NCBI GenBank assembly: GCA_016866785.1
Contig: VGLH01000037.1
Coordinates: forward strand, 1 to 33,170
Direction of reading: 5' to 3'
Length of the DNA stretch: 33,170 bases
From: Candidatus Poribacteria bacterium
GTDB taxonomy: Bacteria; Poribacteria; WGA-4E; GCA-2687025
Positions 1,543 to 30,133 of this stretch are shown here, piece after piece. A program made the position numbers and the translations under genes. Position 1 is the stretch's first letter. Each line of letters starts with the position of its first letter. A model generated the notes under the pieces. The model was given only the letters and a program-made list of their open reading frames with translations. It was not told the DNA's origin and ran no database searches.

Positions 1543-1696
1543 TGCGGAGCCCGTGGTTCCTGTTCGAATGAGTGGCGACAGGTCAGGCTGGGCCCCGCCG
1601 GGCAGCGCAAACGGATACTGCCCGGCGTCGATCTCTATATGGCCACGCACCTGCCGTTGACGTCCGCGCTCCGAGCGTTACTCCGACAGCCAGCTC

Positions 1697-1794
1697 CAGT
1701 CAGGCGCCCCTGCGGCACACGCTTCGCCACCTACCGTTGCTTCCTTCCGGACCTGGCGGGGTTCGGCAGGTAGACGTTGCGCAGGACCCGACTC
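1697..1794 (-). ncRNA. ffs: Signal recognition particle RNA (4.5S, bacterial small type)
   Basis: On the minus strand the conserved apical domain GGTCCGGAAGGAAGC is present at 1753-1739, including the GGAA tetraloop and the asymmetric loop that binds Ffh. The flanks pair: GTCGGG (1792-1787) with CCTGAC (1704-1699), and CCTGCG with CGCAGG further in, so the RNA folds as one long hairpin. Weaker pairing (CGACA 1810-1806 with TGTCG 1688-1684) could extend it to about 127 nt. The exact ends are therefore approximate. The RNA targets nascent membrane and secreted proteins together with Ffh. It lies about 155 bp upstream of dnaX in the same direction. Confidence 0.93.
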
Positions 1795-1810
1795 TCAACG
1801 CCACTTGTCG

Positions 1811-2084
1811 AAGCCTGACCTCACAGAACGTCGCCTCGGGCAGGGATTCCGTCCTGCTATAGCGGGTTGCAGGTTCAGGGCACCGCTACCTCCCCACCTA
1901 GCGTGGCCACGAGGTCGCGCCGACGATTCGGCGCCTGCGCAAAGGAGTTTCAGAGGCGTCGCCCTCAACGTGGAAGCATTCTAGCACTCGACAGCAACGC
2001 AATCAAGGCAGCCGTGGCGCGGATGCCCCCATCTTGCGTTCAGTGGAAGGACTCGTGCTCCCAGGAACGTCGCGCCGGGCGGGG
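1811..2084. other. Intergenic stretch between divergent ffs and the B12-uptake unit
   Basis: No coding frame with family-like content or a ribosome site was found. A TATAGC hexamer on the minus strand near 1859 could be a -10 element for ffs/dnaX transcription, but I see no good -35. The right edge meets the promoter of the riboswitch unit. Confidence 0.4.
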
Positions 2085-2113: not shown

Positions 2114-2165
2114 AGCCATGGAGCCGCCGTCGGGAGATCGCGGCTCACCGAACACAACAAACTCA

Positions 2166-2356
2166 TCGGTTGTTGGTGCCCGCGTGAGCGGGAGAATAGG
2201 GAACACGGTGTAAGTCCGTGACTGCCCCGCAACGGTGAGTCGGTACCCTTGGGGTACTCGCGGCGGAACCACTTGGCGCGATCGGCGTGCCAGGGAAGGT
2301 GCCGCGAGCGCTTCCGGTCGGGAGCGTCGACAAGTCCGGAGACCTGCCACAACCGG
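2166..2356 (+). promoter_or_regulatory. Cobalamin (B12) riboswitch
   Basis: The aptamer shows the family's conserved core. The motif AGGGAACACGGTG starts at 2198, followed by TCCGTGACTGCCCCGCAACGGT, which I read as two adjoining blocks. The B12 box AAGTCCGGAGACCTGCCA lies at about 2332-2349. The closing helix P1 pairs CGGTTGT (2167-2173) with ACAACCG (2349-2355). The length and the peripheral insert are typical of the AdoCbl-type class. Binding of cobalamin would lower expression of the downstream receptor and lipoprotein, the known logic for btuB leaders. An open frame starting at 2235 inside the aptamer is not a gene start. Confidence 0.95.
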
Positions 2357-2435
2357 TTTCTCCGCCTTCCAGGGATGGGCGGGGCAAACGACCGTCGCGA
2401 GCCCAAGCGGCTGCGCGCGTGAGTCAGGTCGTGTG

Positions 2436-2466
2436 ACCCCGAGGCCTCCCGCGAAGGCATCGGGGT
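2436..2466 (+). promoter_or_regulatory. Hairpin next to the start codon, probable riboswitch expression platform
   Basis: ACCCCGA (2436-2442) pairs with TCGGGGT (2460-2466), and inside it GCCT (2444-2447) pairs with AGGC (2455-2458). The loop side holds the only purine-rich bases near the ATG at 2472, so the hairpin would hide the ribosome site. It is followed by TTTCC rather than a long T run, which favours translational over transcriptional control, though a weak terminator is possible. This is inferred from position and pairing only. Confidence 0.5.
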
Positions 2467-2471
2467 TTCCT

Positions 2472-4394
2472 ATGCGCCCACGTGGTACGCGGGTACGGCG
2501 TGGCATCCCAGATTCGGCATCTTTCCTCATCTGGCTGAGCTTTGCCATCGGTCTGCCGCTTGCCGGTTCGCTGCAAGCCGGCGAAGCATCCGCATCGCTC
2601 CCGCCGTCCGTTGTGCGCGCCCTGCGCATCGAGACGCCTCGCACGTCTGTGTCCGCCTCGGTCGAAGAGCTGGACGCCGATGACATACGGGCCCGGAACG
2701 CCCAGACGTTGGGTCAACTGCTGGACGGGCTCGCCAGCGTGCGCGTTCAGCGGTACGGCGGCCTCGGCTCCCTTGAGACGCTTTCGGTTCATGGCGCATC
2801 GGCGGAACGCGTCGTGGTCGTCCAGGACGGGATCCGCCTCAACTCCCCGCAGCATGGTCTGACCGACCTGAGCCTGTGGGACGGACGTGGCGTCGGCAAA
2901 GCCGAAGTGGCGCGCGGCGGCTACTCGGCGATGTACGGCGCGGACGCGATGGGTGGCGTCATCTATCTGGAGAGCCTCTCGTCGAAGGATCGCCCGCCGT
3001 TCTGGTTCTCGACGGAGGCCGGCTCGTTTGGGCTGCGCGGCGTCCGTGCCGGAGCGTCGGGGTCTGCTCGCGGCGGCAGCGGATCCATCGAAGCCGCTCG
3101 TCTGATGGCTGAGAACGATTACCCCTATGACTGGTACGGCGAGACCCGCCGACGCTGGAACACCGACGCCCAGCAGACCGCTGTGCGAGTTCGAGCCGAT
3201 GTCCCGACCCGGTCGTGGCGATGGGTCCTGAACTCGCAGGGCACGCATCGACATGCCGGCACGCCGGGCCCTGACACAGGAGCGCCGATCAACGAATCCG
3301 CTCCTCGGATCCGCCAGGACGACGACGACGGGTTCGCCACGATCCGAGCCATCCGCCCAGGGCAGACTTGGCGGATCGAGGCATCCGGCAGCGTCCGCGG
3401 CACCTATCAACGGTACCACGACCCAACCATCGATATCGATAGCCGGCATCGAGTGCGTTCGGTGACGTCGTCCGGGCAGGCGACGCGTATGCTGGGTCCG
3501 TTCCGCGTCGCGGCTGGATTGGATGGCGAGCTCTCGACGATCCGCAGCACCGAGACGAAAGACGGTGATCGTCGGCATGTCGGGGCGTATGCCATCTGCA
3601 TGGCGTCCTTCGGGTTGGGCGGCGGCTGGTCAGCCGACGCCGACGCCGCGCTTCGCGAGGATGCGTTCAGCGACTTCGGTCGAGCCTTCAGCCCGCGGAC
3701 TGGCATCGTGGTCGGCAACGGGGCATTTCGCTTGTTGGCGAACGCCGGTGAGAGCTTCCGAGCCCCCACCTTCAACAGCTTGTACTGGAATCCAGGCGGC
3801 AACCCGGAGCTCCAACCCGAGCACGCAGATCACCACGCGGTTGGCGTTGGGTGGACCAGACCGACTTGGTCGGCTGAGGTCACTCGACTGGAGGCGAGAT
3901 ACCGGAACCAGATCAGGTGGCTGCCGGACGCGGGCGGCAAGTGGTCCGCGCAGAACGTAGCCCGGAGCGAGTTGTCCGGCTGGGACGCTTGGGCTGCCGC
4001 GCGCACGGGACGCTGGCGCGCAAGGCTCCGGGGCTCCCAGTCCGATGCCGTGCAGAAGGACGGCTCGCCTGCGACAACGCCGGCGTATGGCAAGCAGATT
4101 CCATTTGTTGCGCGACGGATGGCTTCGGCGGAGGTCTCCTACGAGCGAAGTGAGTTCGGATTCACTGCTCGGCAGCGTTGGGTCGGGCAGGCGTTCACAC
4201 GAGCCGACAATCGCGCGGCTCTTCCCGGCTATTCCATTGGCGACATGGGCGTCTGGGTGCGCCCCAGATGGATGGAGGGACACTGGGAACTACGCGTTGA
4301 CGTGGATAACGTCTGGAATCGTCGCTACGTCGTGATGCCTCAGTATCCGCTTCCCGGGCGGGCGCTTCGGCTGGCGGTCAGCGGAAGCCTTTGA
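2472..4394 (+). CDS. btuB: TonB-dependent outer-membrane receptor, BtuB-like
   Basis: Energy-coupled outer-membrane transporter, predicted to import cobalamin. The ATG at 2472 gives 640 residues with a signal peptide (about 1-36, cleavage after LQA). A plug domain at about 62-168 contains SVEELDADDIRARNAQTLGQ and VVVVQDGIRLNS. A beta-barrel follows, carrying SFRAPTFNSLYWNPGGNPEL and the closing strand VDNVWNRRYVVMPQYPLPGR typical of BtuB/FepA-like receptors. The last residue is Leu rather than the usual Phe. No clear TonB box was recognised. B12 as substrate is inferred from the cobalamin riboswitch directly upstream. The length fits BtuB (about 600 residues). The next gene starts 25 bp downstream and is probably co-transcribed. 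The longer open frame from 2235 was rejected because it runs through the riboswitch. Confidence 0.9.
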   Translation: MRPRGTRVRRGIPDSASFLIWLSFAIGLPLAGSLQAGEASASLPPSVVRALRIETPRTSVSASVEELDADDIRARNAQTLGQLLDGLASVRVQRYGGLGSLETLSVHGASAERVVVVQDGIRLNSPQHGLTDLSLWDGRGVGKAEVARGGYSAMYGADAMGGVIYLESLSSKDRPPFWFSTEAGSFGLRGVRAGASGSARGGSGSIEAARLMAENDYPYDWYGETRRRWNTDAQQTAVRVRADVPTRSWRWVLNSQGTHRHAGTPGPDTGAPINESAPRIRQDDDDGFATIRAIRPGQTWRIEASGSVRGTYQRYHDPTIDIDSRHRVRSVTSSGQATRMLGPFRVAAGLDGELSTIRSTETKDGDRRHVGAYAICMASFGLGGGWSADADAALREDAFSDFGRAFSPRTGIVVGNGAFRLLANAGESFRAPTFNSLYWNPGGNPELQPEHADHHAVGVGWTRPTWSAEVTRLEARYRNQIRWLPDAGGKWSAQNVARSELSGWDAWAAARTGRWRARLRGSQSDAVQKDGSPATTPAYGKQIPFVARRMASAEVSYERSEFGFTARQRWVGQAFTRADNRAALPGYSIGDMGVWVRPRWMEGHWELRVDVDNVWNRRYVVMPQYPLPGRALRLAVSGSL

Positions 4395-19534: not shown

Positions 19535-20656
19535 CTAACGCGGAACCGCGGTCGTGCGAGCGGGCTGAACACGATCCGTCCAGAATCCTGAGATGATCTC
19601 GGAACAGCGCGGGCATTTGCCATGATCCATGTGATATTCGAGGATTCGGTAGCCGCGACGCGCCACGAGGATCGTACCGCATCCGGGGCACTTCGTATGC
19701 TCCGAGTCGGCGACCTCGCCAGGGAGGTTCCCGGCGTAGACGTACCGCAGCCCGTTGGACACGCCGATCTCTCGAGCGCGCCTTAGATCGCCGGCGGTCG
19801 TCTCGCTCGGGTCGAGCATCCGGTAGTCATGGTGGAACGCGGTGACGTGCCATGGCACGTCGGGCGACACCGAGGCGATGAACGCCGCGATGTCGTTCAG
19901 CTCCTCGTCCGAGTCGTTGAAGCCCGGAACGACCAATGTCACGATCTCGACCCAGATGCCTCTCCGAACCAAGCTCTGGATCGTGTCGAGGATGGGTTGC
20001 AGCCTGCCGCCCAGGCGTCGGTACTGGCGATCCTGGAACGTCTTGAGATCGACCTTGTAGAGCGAGATGTACGGCTGTAGATAGTCGAGCACACGTTCCG
20101 TCGCGTTCCCATTGGACACGTACGAGCAGATGAGGCCCGCCTCGCGGGCGAGGCGGAACACGCGCGTCGCCCACTCCGACGTGATCAGCGGCTCGTTGTA
20201 TGTGCTCGTGACGACCTGAGCGTGCATGCGCATCGCCACGGCGACGATCTGCTCAGGGCTCACGTCCCTGGGAGCCACTCCGGCGCTCGGATCGCGCAAC
20301 GATTGAGAGGTGACCCAGTTCTGGCAGTACCCGCAGTGCAGGTCGCATCCGAGCATCCCGAACGAGAGAGCCGAGGCTCCAGGGAGCGCGTGGAAGAAGG
20401 GCTTCTTCTCGATGGGATCGCACTGGATCCCGGCGACGTACCCTCCCGGCGCTACGAACTGCTCGCCATCGTGGAAGCGCACACGGCACACGCCAGCTCG
20501 ACCTGGCTTGACGAGGCAAGCGTGCGCGCACGCATGGCAGCGCGCCGATCCGTCTGGCAGGTCGTCGTGGAGCTCACTGGGAATCGTCCGGGAGCCCAGC
20601 AGGTCGCCCAGCGTCTTCAGCCGTGCCGTGTCTTTCGACGGAGTCGTCGCTCTCAT
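19535..20656 (-). CDS. amrS: AmmeMemoRadiSam system radical SAM enzyme
   Basis: 373 residues. Radical SAM cysteines are Cys104, Cys108 and Cys111 in GCDLHCGYCQNW. The N-terminus carries the family's extra cysteines (CHACAHACLVKPGRAGVC, residues 40-57) and EKKPFFHALPG. Later segments STYNEPLI and VDLKTF are typical. The C-terminus is a zinc-ribbon-like CPGCGTILVARRGYRILEYH followed by CPRC, typical of AmrS. AmrS is defined by genomic co-occurrence with AmrA (AMMECR1) and AmrB (MEMO); neither partner is in this window. The ATG overlaps the thrC stop (ATGA), so the two are translationally coupled and controlled by the leader upstream of thrC. Its substrate is not established. Confidence 0.9.
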   Translation of the reverse strand: MRATTPSKDTARLKTLGDLLGSRTIPSELHDDLPDGSARCHACAHACLVKPGRAGVCRVRFHDGEQFVAPGGYVAGIQCDPIEKKPFFHALPGASALSFGMLGCDLHCGYCQNWVTSQSLRDPSAGVAPRDVSPEQIVAVAMRMHAQVVTSTYNEPLITSEWATRVFRLAREAGLICSYVSNGNATERVLDYLQPYISLYKVDLKTFQDRQYRRLGGRLQPILDTIQSLVRRGIWVEIVTLVVPGFNDSDEELNDIAAFIASVSPDVPWHVTAFHHDYRMLDPSETTAGDLRRAREIGVSNGLRYVYAGNLPGEVADSEHTKCPGCGTILVARRGYRILEYHMDHGKCPRCSEIISGFWTDRVQPARTTAVPR

Positions 20657-21885
20657 CCCGCTCGCTGCATGAGTTTCTCGAACGCCGCGAGCTGCGGCAG
20701 GATGATCTCCTGCTCCGCCACGGTGCTGAGGACGACTTCCAGAGTCTTGAGTCCGTTGCCGGTGATGGAGACGACCACCGATTCGTCGGGACGGATGCGC
20801 CCTGAGTCGATGAGCCGTTTCGTCGCGGCGAGCGTGACGCCTCCGGCGGTCTCGGTGAAGATGCCCTCCGTGCTCGCCAGCAGGTGAATCGCCTCGACGA
20901 TCTCGTCGTCGGTGGCGTGCTCACCAAAGCCGCCCGTTCGTCGAGTCGTCTCCACGGCGTAGATGCCATCGGCGGGATTGCCGATCGCCAGGGATTTCGC
21001 AATCGTGTTGGGTCTGACGGGCTTCACGAACTCGTCCTGGTCTTTGATCGTGTTCACGATGGGCCCGCACCCAGACGCCTGCGCAGCATGGATCCGCGTG
21101 TGTTCGGAGTCGATCAGTCCGAGCTTGTGGAACTCGCGGATCGCCTTGCCGATCTTCGTGATCAGAGAGCCACCGGCGCATGGAACGACGATGTTGTCGG
21201 GAGCCCTCCAACCGAGCTGCTCGAGGATCTCGTATCCATAGGTCTTGGAGCCCTCGGCGTAGAAGGGTCGGATGTTGATGTTGACGAACGCCCAGTTGTA
21301 GACGCCGCCGATCTCGCTGCAGAGCCGGTTGACTTCGTCGTAGGTTCCGGTGATGCCGACAACCGTGGGCTGGAAGACCTGCGTTCCAACGACCTTCGGG
21401 GCTTCCAGGTCTGCCGGGATGAAGATGTACGCCTTCATGCCTGCCCTAGCCGCGTGCGCCGCGACCGAGTTCGCCAGATTGCCGGTCGAGGCACACGCCA
21501 CGGTATCGAATCCGAACTCCTTCGCCTTCGACAGGGCCACGGTGACGACACGATCCTTGAACGACAGGGTCGGCGCACACACGGCGTCGTTCTTGATGTA
21601 GACCTCGCGCACGCCGAGGGCTTCCGCCAAGTTGCGCGCTCTGATCAGCGGCGTCCAGCCGGTGTCGTGCCCGTCGGTCGGCTCGCCGTCGACCGGAAGC
21701 AGGTCGGCGTACCGCCAGTGGTTCGGTGGGCCCGATTCGATCCGCTTGCGGGAGATCACCGACGCAATCGCTTCGTAGTCGTATGCGACCTCAAGGGGCC
21801 CGAAGCAGAACTCGCAGACATGCAGGGGCTCGACCGGGTAGTCGGCTCCGCACTCGCGGCATCTCAGTCCCTGAATGCGTCCCAT
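20653..21885 (-). CDS. thrC: Threonine synthase (PLP-dependent)
   Basis: 410 residues from ATG 21885, with GAGGAG eight bases upstream. The longer open frame to 22167 was rejected because it reads through the leader terminator. Threonine synthase converts O-phospho-L-homoserine to threonine and phosphate using PLP. The PLP lysine is Lys110 in TLSFKDRVV, after the substrate-binding ND and before ACASTGNLANSVAAHAARAG. The phosphate-binding loop region CAGGSLITKIGKAI and TETAGGVTLAAT are present. An N-terminal rubredoxin-like zinc knuckle (Cys9, Cys12, Cys24, Cys27) marks the longer bacterial/archaeal form. It shares its transcript with amrS and is preceded by a structured leader with its own promoter and terminator (21935-22186). 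Confidence 0.93.
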   Translation of the reverse strand: MGRIQGLRCRECGADYPVEPLHVCEFCFGPLEVAYDYEAIASVISRKRIESGPPNHWRYADLLPVDGEPTDGHDTGWTPLIRARNLAEALGVREVYIKNDAVCAPTLSFKDRVVTVALSKAKEFGFDTVACASTGNLANSVAAHAARAGMKAYIFIPADLEAPKVVGTQVFQPTVVGITGTYDEVNRLCSEIGGVYNWAFVNINIRPFYAEGSKTYGYEILEQLGWRAPDNIVVPCAGGSLITKIGKAIREFHKLGLIDSEHTRIHAAQASGCGPIVNTIKDQDEFVKPVRPNTIAKSLAIGNPADGIYAVETTRRTGGFGEHATDDEIVEAIHLLASTEGIFTETAGGVTLAATKRLIDSGRIRPDESVVVSITGNGLKTLEVVLSTVAEQEIILPQLAAFEKLMQRAG

Positions 21886-21934
21886 GCAGCCAACTCCTCG
21901 GCGACGTCCGAGCAACGATGGACGTTCGCCGCAC

Positions 21935-21963
21935 AAAAAACCCACTGCCGCACGACAGTGGGT
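21935..21963 (-). terminator. Intrinsic terminator inside the thrC leader (attenuator)
   Basis: On the minus strand ACCCACTG (21963-21956) pairs perfectly with CAGTGGGT at the other arm (ending at 21940), with an 8-base loop. It is followed by six T residues (21940-21935). It lies 50 bases upstream of the thrC ATG and about 190 bases downstream of the predicted start of transcription. No gene on this strand needs terminating here, which makes it a candidate attenuator. Confidence 0.82.
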
Positions 21964-21989
21964 ACGATCTGTGTTCGCGCTCATCCGAG

Positions 21990-22106
21990 CTAGCAGACAG
22001 ACGACCCACACTCGACGGAAAGCGGCATGCGCCAAGCGCGCATGCCGCGTCGCATGACCATGGTTGCCGATCGCATCGTAGCCGATGCTGTGCGGGTCTG
22101 AGTCAT
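21990..22106 (-). CDS. Candidate Thr/Met-rich leader peptide of the thrC attenuator
   Basis: A 38-codon frame from ATG 22106 to TAG 21990, inside the thrC leader. It starts MTQTRTASATMRSAT, with threonine at positions 2, 4, 6, 10 and 15 (codons ACT, ACC, ACA, ACG, ACC) and methionine at 1, 11, 16, 18, 22 and 27. Its stop is 27 bases before the terminator hairpin. Known thr operon leaders stall ribosomes at Thr codons. Here, a stall would leave GTGGGT (22009-22004, codons 33-35) free to pair with ACCCAC (21963-21958), the 5' arm of the terminator. A ribosome reaching the stop would cover it. The ribosome site is modest (GGAG about 13 bases upstream). Arg and Ala are also common, as expected in GC-rich DNA, so the Thr cluster needs conservation evidence. 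Confidence 0.55.
   Translation of the reverse strand: MTQTRTASATMRSATMVMRRGMRAWRMPLSVECGSSVC
22022..22048 (-). repeat. Perfect 11-bp hairpin in the thrC leader
   Basis: GCGGCATGCGC and GCGCATGCCGC flank a 5-base loop. The hairpin spans codons 20-28 of the leader peptide, between the Thr codons and the proposed antiterminator segment. It could act as a pause or spacer hairpin. It is followed by TTTCC only, so it is probably not a terminator itself. Confidence 0.6.
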
Positions 22107-22157
22107 CGAGCCAATCCCGCTCCGCAGGTCGCGCCAATCCACACTGAAGCTCGCCGG

Positions 22158-22186
22158 ATACTAGCACGGACCCCGCGAGGAGTCAA
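22158..22186 (-). promoter_or_regulatory. Sigma70-type promoter of thrC-amrS
   Basis: On the minus strand TTGACT (22186-22181) and TAGTAT (22163-22158) are 17 bases apart. Transcription would start near 22151, giving a leader of about 265 bases before the thrC ATG. That length is what an attenuator needs. Confidence 0.7.
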
Positions 22187-30057: not shown

Positions 30058-30133
30058 GGCTTCGTAGCTCAGTCGGTAGAGCGAGCGACTCATAATCGCT
30101 AGGTCGTTGGTTCAAGTCCAACCGGAGCCACCA
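30058..30133 (+). tRNA. tRNA-Met (CAU), elongator type
   Basis: A full cloverleaf: acceptor GGCTTCG pairs with CGGAGCC (30123-30129), D arm GCTC/GAGC, anticodon stem AGCGA/TCGCT around loop CTCATAA (anticodon CAT), and T arm GTTGG/CCAAC with TTCAAGT. The discriminator is A and CCA is encoded (30131-30133). The paired 1-72 position excludes initiator tRNA. Similarity to the E. coli elongator tRNA-Met (GGCTACGTAGCTCAGT...) favours Met over Ile2, although a lysidine-modified Ile tRNA cannot be fully excluded. Confidence 0.94.

Follow-up and report, generated by a model that had tools for sequence, protein, structure and literature searches.

Leader-peptide attenuation is textbook knowledge for tryptophan, histidine, leucine, isoleucine/valine, phenylalanine and threonine. 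Control by methionine is usually ascribed to SAM riboswitches, to MetJ or to T-boxes. In the thrL, trpL and hisL attenuators a short leader frame carries a run of regulatory codons, its stop codon lies at the antiterminator strand, and a competing terminator is located 5' of the biosynthetic gene. S-box (SAM-I) riboswitches terminate transcription when methionine or SAM is plentiful; they bind SAM directly, without a translated leader. T-box leaders sense tRNA charging and control amino acid genes, likewise needing no leader peptide, and tandem T-boxes have been described on thrC in Bacillota (PMC12452182). For Streptomyces albulus, the accessible part of PMC12172450 (citing Hasebe et al., 2024, Appl Environ Microbiol 90:e01247-24) describes a SAM riboswitch layout for metM-metO and a homocysteine synthase using O-phospho-L-homoserine. 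The accessible parts of the attenuator surveys PMC1262725, PMC2965389 and PMC8632094 contain no methionine leader. A literature search for Met-codon attenuators also returned nothing relevant; subscription journals lay largely outside this search, so that the absence is weak evidence.

We analyzed a window of 33,170 nt of Candidatus Poribacteria DNA (contig VGLH01000037.1; the genome is labelled G000), in which a leader precedes a gene annotated as threonine synthase (thrC). The initial annotation had interpreted this leader as a threonine attenuator, remarking in passing that methionine might be sensed as well. The leader has the layout of thrL, trpL and hisL but uses Met codons, has a predicted MetM-type target and belongs to the phylum Poribacteria. 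Comparison with related genomes leads us to propose that it is a ribosome-mediated transcription attenuator with Met codons as the sensor, controlling the gene of a MetM-type homocysteine synthase together with amrS (probability roughly 0.78). Mechanistically it would join an established class; what appears to be new in the literature searched, within the limits of that search, are the amino acid, the target gene and the phylum.

Anatomy of the leader

All parts of the leader are located on the minus strand. The promoter (22158-22186) reads TTGACT-17 nt-TAGTAT with a TG before the -10 element (extended -10) and matches 9 of 12 consensus positions. It is the only sigma-70-like match within 4 kb, where shuffled sequences lead to an expectation of 0.4, and it would place the transcription start at about position 22151. 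The leader open reading frame, MTQTRTASATMRSATMVMRRGMRAWRMPLSVECGSSVC, comprises 38 codons from the ATG at 22106 to the TAG at 21990; an alternative GTG start is possible at 22142. Translation confirmed the five Thr codons within the first 15 (codons 2, 4, 6, 10 and 15) and the six Met codons (1, 11, 16, 18, 22 and 27) counted in the initial annotation, the internal Met codons being located at 22076, 22061, 22055, 22043 and 22028.

A perfect 11-bp hairpin (22022-22048; arms 22048-22038 and 22032-22022, -23.7 kcal/mol) contains a Met codon in each arm and is probably a pause hairpin for RNA polymerase. Strand 2, the antiterminator strand GTGGGTCGTCTGT (21997-22009), ends just 5' of the leader stop codon, and its partner, strand 3, is ACAGATCGTACCCAC (21958-21972), whose last six bases form the start of the terminator 5' arm. 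The intrinsic terminator (21935-21963) has a 10-bp stem (21963-21940), a 4-nt loop and a run of six T residues, with -17.2 kcal/mol. It is separated by 48 nt, close to the 50 bases given initially, from the ATG (21885) of the thrC-annotated gene (20653-21885), which overlaps by 4 nt with amrS (19535-20656), encoding an AmmeMemoRadiSam radical SAM enzyme. Promoter, frame, hairpin and terminator are thus all present as first annotated.

The whole leader folded better than 200 of 200 shuffled sequences (z -3.0). The initially proposed pairing of GTGGGT (22009-22004) with ACCCAC (21963-21958) was found as well, and in a fold of the exposed stretch the duplex extends to about 13 bp (-28.1 kcal/mol); taken alone, the duplex of strands 2 and 3 is weakly significant against shuffles (P=0.066). 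In the minimum free energy fold strand 1, GACCCGCAC (codons 3-6, 22090-22098), pairs with GTGTGGGTC, which corresponds to the classical pairing of strands 1 and 2; a similar pairing was seen in the related genome G001. Strand 1 would act as the protector while the leader is untranslated. Rfam searches of the window leader at gathering and at relaxed thresholds gave no match, neither to a SAM riboswitch nor to a T-box.

From this anatomy we infer the following course of stalling, pausing and termination. When charged tRNA-Met is scarce, the ribosome would stall in the Met run of the leader. Halted at the last Met codon, it would occupy some 14 nt further on without reaching strand 2; this strand could then pair with strand 3, which would block the terminator and permit transcription of the metM-type gene and amrS. 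With plentiful methionine, the ribosome would reach the stop codon and cover strand 2, and the terminator would form. Against this reading it can be said that a methionine shortage should also hamper initiation at the leader, which complicates methionine as a signal. Methionine being such an awkward signal, the conservation of a Met leader poses a testable question.

Methionine and threonine codons in the leader frames

A DNA search with the window leader matched only the hairpin of genome G005, and the leaders of relatives were therefore located via the encoded protein of the downstream gene. This yielded, with the window, twelve Poribacterial leaders from two families, four from the window's own family (f1) and eight from family f6. 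In three genomes of the window's family, G001, G005 and G002, the frame 5' of the orthologous gene is 29-40 codons long and contains five internal Met codons and 0-1 Thr codons; the cores of these frames read ...RMAMPSGMRAMRMP... (G005), ...WMAMPSGMRMNDPRMP... (G002) and ...SMRMSLAWSMRRMRR... (G001). The eight f6 frames share the core MYMPxMGIAxxxSM and contain one to three Thr codons. Met is conserved in 12 of 12 frames, with four to five internal Met codons each, and Thr codons number 0-3 per leader outside the window. The conserved Thr codons that the initial annotation had proposed to look for in related upstream regions were not found, while the Met codons are kept. Since Met and not Thr is common to the leaders of the relatives, methionine would be the sensed amino acid, and the former side remark becomes the main point.

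Codon excess was assessed with 2000 dinucleotide-preserving shuffles of each leader, scoring the best small frame. The Met excess of the window frame is non-random (six internal Met codons in the version with the longest start, P at most 5e-4), and its Thr count is within chance (P=0.09). Significant Met excess was found in the window, G001, G002, G005 and six f6 leaders (P 5e-4 to 0.044), significant Thr excess in no leader of the window or its relatives. We excluded Met-rich frames of L067 and L073, where the homologous stretch resembles the end of a gene lying upstream and read in a different frame.

These counts bear on a thrL-type mechanism, in which Thr codons would stall the ribosome and a real threonine synthase would be controlled: the accumulation of Thr among the first 15 window codons speaks for it, the chance-level count and the 0-3 Thr codons of the relatives speak against it, and the identity of the gene, discussed below, makes it highly improbable. 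They also bear on a dual sensor, for which the leader of the window's lineage would have gained Thr codons and would read both threonine and methionine, the two products of the O-phosphohomoserine branch. The Thr codons 2-15 lie ahead of the Met run, in the window only, and a stall at them would also free strand 2. Their number is not significant, however, and they are not conserved even in the nearest relatives, so that we regard a dual sensor as unlikely.

In-frame indels and a pooled pN/pS of 0.54 in f6 point to moderate selection at the level of the frame; the f6 core hardly varies in nucleotides. Together with the conservation of non-Met residues in f6 (MYMPxMGIA), this near invariance would also fit an arrest peptide, a nascent chain of the type M-x-M-P-x-G-M that senses a metabolite such as SAM or methionine in the ribosome tunnel instead of codon starvation. 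Given this geometry, stalling induced by such a ligand would activate the gene at high levels of its end product, which is the wrong sign for a biosynthetic gene; moreover, the cores of the window (MVMRRGM) and of G001 (MRMSLAW) differ strongly and have only Met in common. We consider an arrest peptide very unlikely and the reading of Met codons through their charged tRNA the better account of the frames.

Competing helices in related leaders

A terminator is located between the leader frame and the gene in the window, in G001, in G005 and in all eight f6 leaders, that is, in 11 of the 12. Strand 2 is able to pair with the terminator 5' arm in 10 of the 12 leaders (10 of the 11 with a terminator), and it ends no more than 10 nt from the leader stop codon in the window, G001, G005 and seven f6 leaders. 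The f6 stop codon directly follows or overlaps the sequence GTGAxAATAGGCAA(T), which is complementary to ATTGCCTATTATCAC in the terminator 5' arm. Compared with shuffled sequences, the duplex is far stronger in seven of the eight f6 leaders (P 0.000-0.004); in G005 it is a 12-bp match (P 0.000), and for G001 P is 0.028. The leader of G080 is the exception (P 0.40): frame and terminator are kept there, and a good strand 2 is absent.

In the f6 alignment, 92% of the cells are paired in the register of strand 2 and terminator, compared with 34-51% when the register is slid. No compensatory double changes were found within this alignment, and covariation within f6 is therefore uninformative. The same pairing arrangement is built from completely different sequences in f1 and f6, and it is this recurrence with unrelated sequences in two families that argues for competing helices. 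Taken together, the attenuator anatomy and the logic of the leader frame proposed at the outset find support in the window and in its relatives.

In both families, the segment separating the Met run from strand 2 also contains a hairpin whose two arms each include a Met codon. The f1 arms, GCGGCATGCGC/GCGCATGCCGC, are shared by three genomes (the window, G005 and G002); the f6 arms are GCATGGGCATTGC/GCGGTGTCCATGC, with a loop that differs by whole codons. The persistence of the 11-bp hairpin in G005 and in the terminator-less G002, and some nucleotide conservation of the core, could be explained by an element that acts without translation, the frame being incidental: as RNA it would be a new riboswitch, as DNA an operator palindrome (GCGGCATGCGC/GCGCATGCCGC) recognized by a regulator. 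We consider this explanation very unlikely: Rfam gave no match in the leader, G001 and f6 have the Met codons but not the hairpin sequence, and the indels in the frame preserve the reading frame. The palindrome was also considered as a regulon-wide operator, and this was rejected, since the genome contains only one further copy, which lies within an unrelated frame or at its end.

Partial leaders occur as well. G002 (L005) has kept frame and hairpin and has no terminator; G010 (L180) has kept the terminator and an antiterminator-like strand and has lost the Met run. These two may represent decay of such leaders or another way of working. The leader is missing from most Poribacteria (family f2). 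Because of this absence and of the exceptions G002, G010 and G080, the proposed Met-codon attenuation is limited to part of the phylum.

Identity of the downstream gene and homocysteine synthesis

The window gene (21885-20653) passes the thrC cut-off of TIGR00260, as would be expected if a thrL-type attenuator controlled a true threonine synthase. However, a separate hom-thrC pair is encoded elsewhere in the same genome (G000:C12), with ThrC directly behind homoserine dehydrogenase, and this hom-linked ThrC scores higher with the ThrC model (301 versus 276 bits), which argues that the window gene is not the pathway ThrC. In a phylogenetic tree the window gene falls, apart from the hom-linked ThrC, into a monophyletic clade (100/99) with members from Poribacteria, Methylomirabilota, Nitrospirota, Myxococcota, Armatimonadota, Aquificota and others. 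Frequent neighbors of the gene in other phyla are genes for ThiS-type sulfur carriers, NIL-domain proteins, cysteine-synthase-like enzymes, ThiF and JAB. Furthermore, 15 of the 32 non-Poribacterial loci of the clade have a SAM-I riboswitch upstream on the same strand, 74-404 nt from the gene except at two loci, where it lies about 2.3 kb away at the start of the cluster.

In a Nonomuraea locus, a SAM riboswitch is followed by a gene 53% identical to the window gene and by a ThiS-type carrier ending in GG, a layout that matches the one reported for metM-metO in the accessible part of PMC12172450. The Nonomuraea protein joins the clade of the window gene on a long branch, in a tree calculated without the S. 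albulus MetM. Close homologues of the MetO carrier are encoded elsewhere in Poribacterial genomes (E 1e-38 in G000); in G042, for example, the carrier gene is clustered with those for cysteine synthase, JAB and NIL. Clade, neighbors and SAM riboswitches together suggest that the window gene is MetM-type, predicted to make the methionine precursor homocysteine from O-phosphohomoserine. Threonine synthase, the target named in the initial annotation, is thus probably wrong, and the riboswitches upstream of the orthologues further lower the standing of a thrL-type mechanism.

The Poribacterial gene and metM-metO belong to the same clade and would share the regulatory purpose of following methionine status; they differ in that the Poribacteria have a Met-codon leader instead of a SAM riboswitch and encode the carrier elsewhere in the genome. 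Most likely, the Met leader serves the metM-type gene of Poribacteria in the role that SAM riboswitches fill for this gene in other bacteria. Exchanges of a regulatory sensor have precedent, as discussed in the accessible part of PMC2965389. Within the window's family, amrS follows the metM-type gene in three of four members, namely the window (19535-20656), G001 and G005 (L003 2794-3891 and L004 2747-3904), and not in G002.

HcyBio (DUF39) was rejected as the homocysteine route of genomes carrying the metM-type gene, as it is absent from 35 of 35. A PF01053-type enzyme (MetB, MetC, MetY or MetZ) is absent in 20 of these 35, comprising G001, G002, G005, G010 and 16 of the 22 genomes from outside the phylum, some of the latter being small MAGs. 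A MetX match was found in eight and a homocysteine methyltransferase in 29 of the 35. Many of them can therefore make methionine from homocysteine and have no other recognized homocysteine route. The window genome contains metX-metY-cysK, so that MetM would be a second, redundant route there. The metM-type gene bears on the homocysteine routes left open by Price et al., 2018 (PMC5764234), for example in Aquifex.

The predicted regulation offers evidence, independent of sequence similarity, for a role in methionine synthesis of a large group of genes now called threonine synthase, and judging from gene clusters and riboswitches this annotation is probably wrong on a large scale in many phyla. 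A wider proposal joins two claims: that Met-codon attenuation is a real, previously undescribed leader-peptide specificity that has replaced the SAM riboswitch upstream of metM in Poribacteria, and that many uncultured phyla (Methylomirabilota, Nitrospirota, Nitrospinota, Armatimonadota, Aquificota and some Poribacteria), including lineages without a recognized homocysteine pathway, make homocysteine mainly through metM, mislabelled as threonine synthase. We put this joint proposal at even odds.

At the loci L080-L109, L111 and L112, the thrC-annotated gene is clustered with genes for ThiS-type carriers, NIL, ThiF, JAB and cysteine synthase, often behind a SAM riboswitch. Families f2, f7 and f8 and genome G010, in which we did not find the hom-linked short ThrC, encode a third ThrC-like type of about 440 aa; its G010 copy (L140, G010:C26:214516) lies 3 kb from the metM-type gene.

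The window genome has a single SAM-I riboswitch match, 5' of metK (L178 3730-3860, G000:C10), and a search of 78 further genomes, almost all from the same class, gave no match. Elsewhere in the window, a large bacterial SRP RNA (1643-1906, minus strand) and a tRNA gene (30058-30130, plus strand) were detected. A cobalamin riboswitch (2156-2365, plus strand, 101.9 bits) overlaps the start of the frame 2235-4394, which encodes a TonB-dependent receptor, and the true start of this gene is therefore probably located further in.
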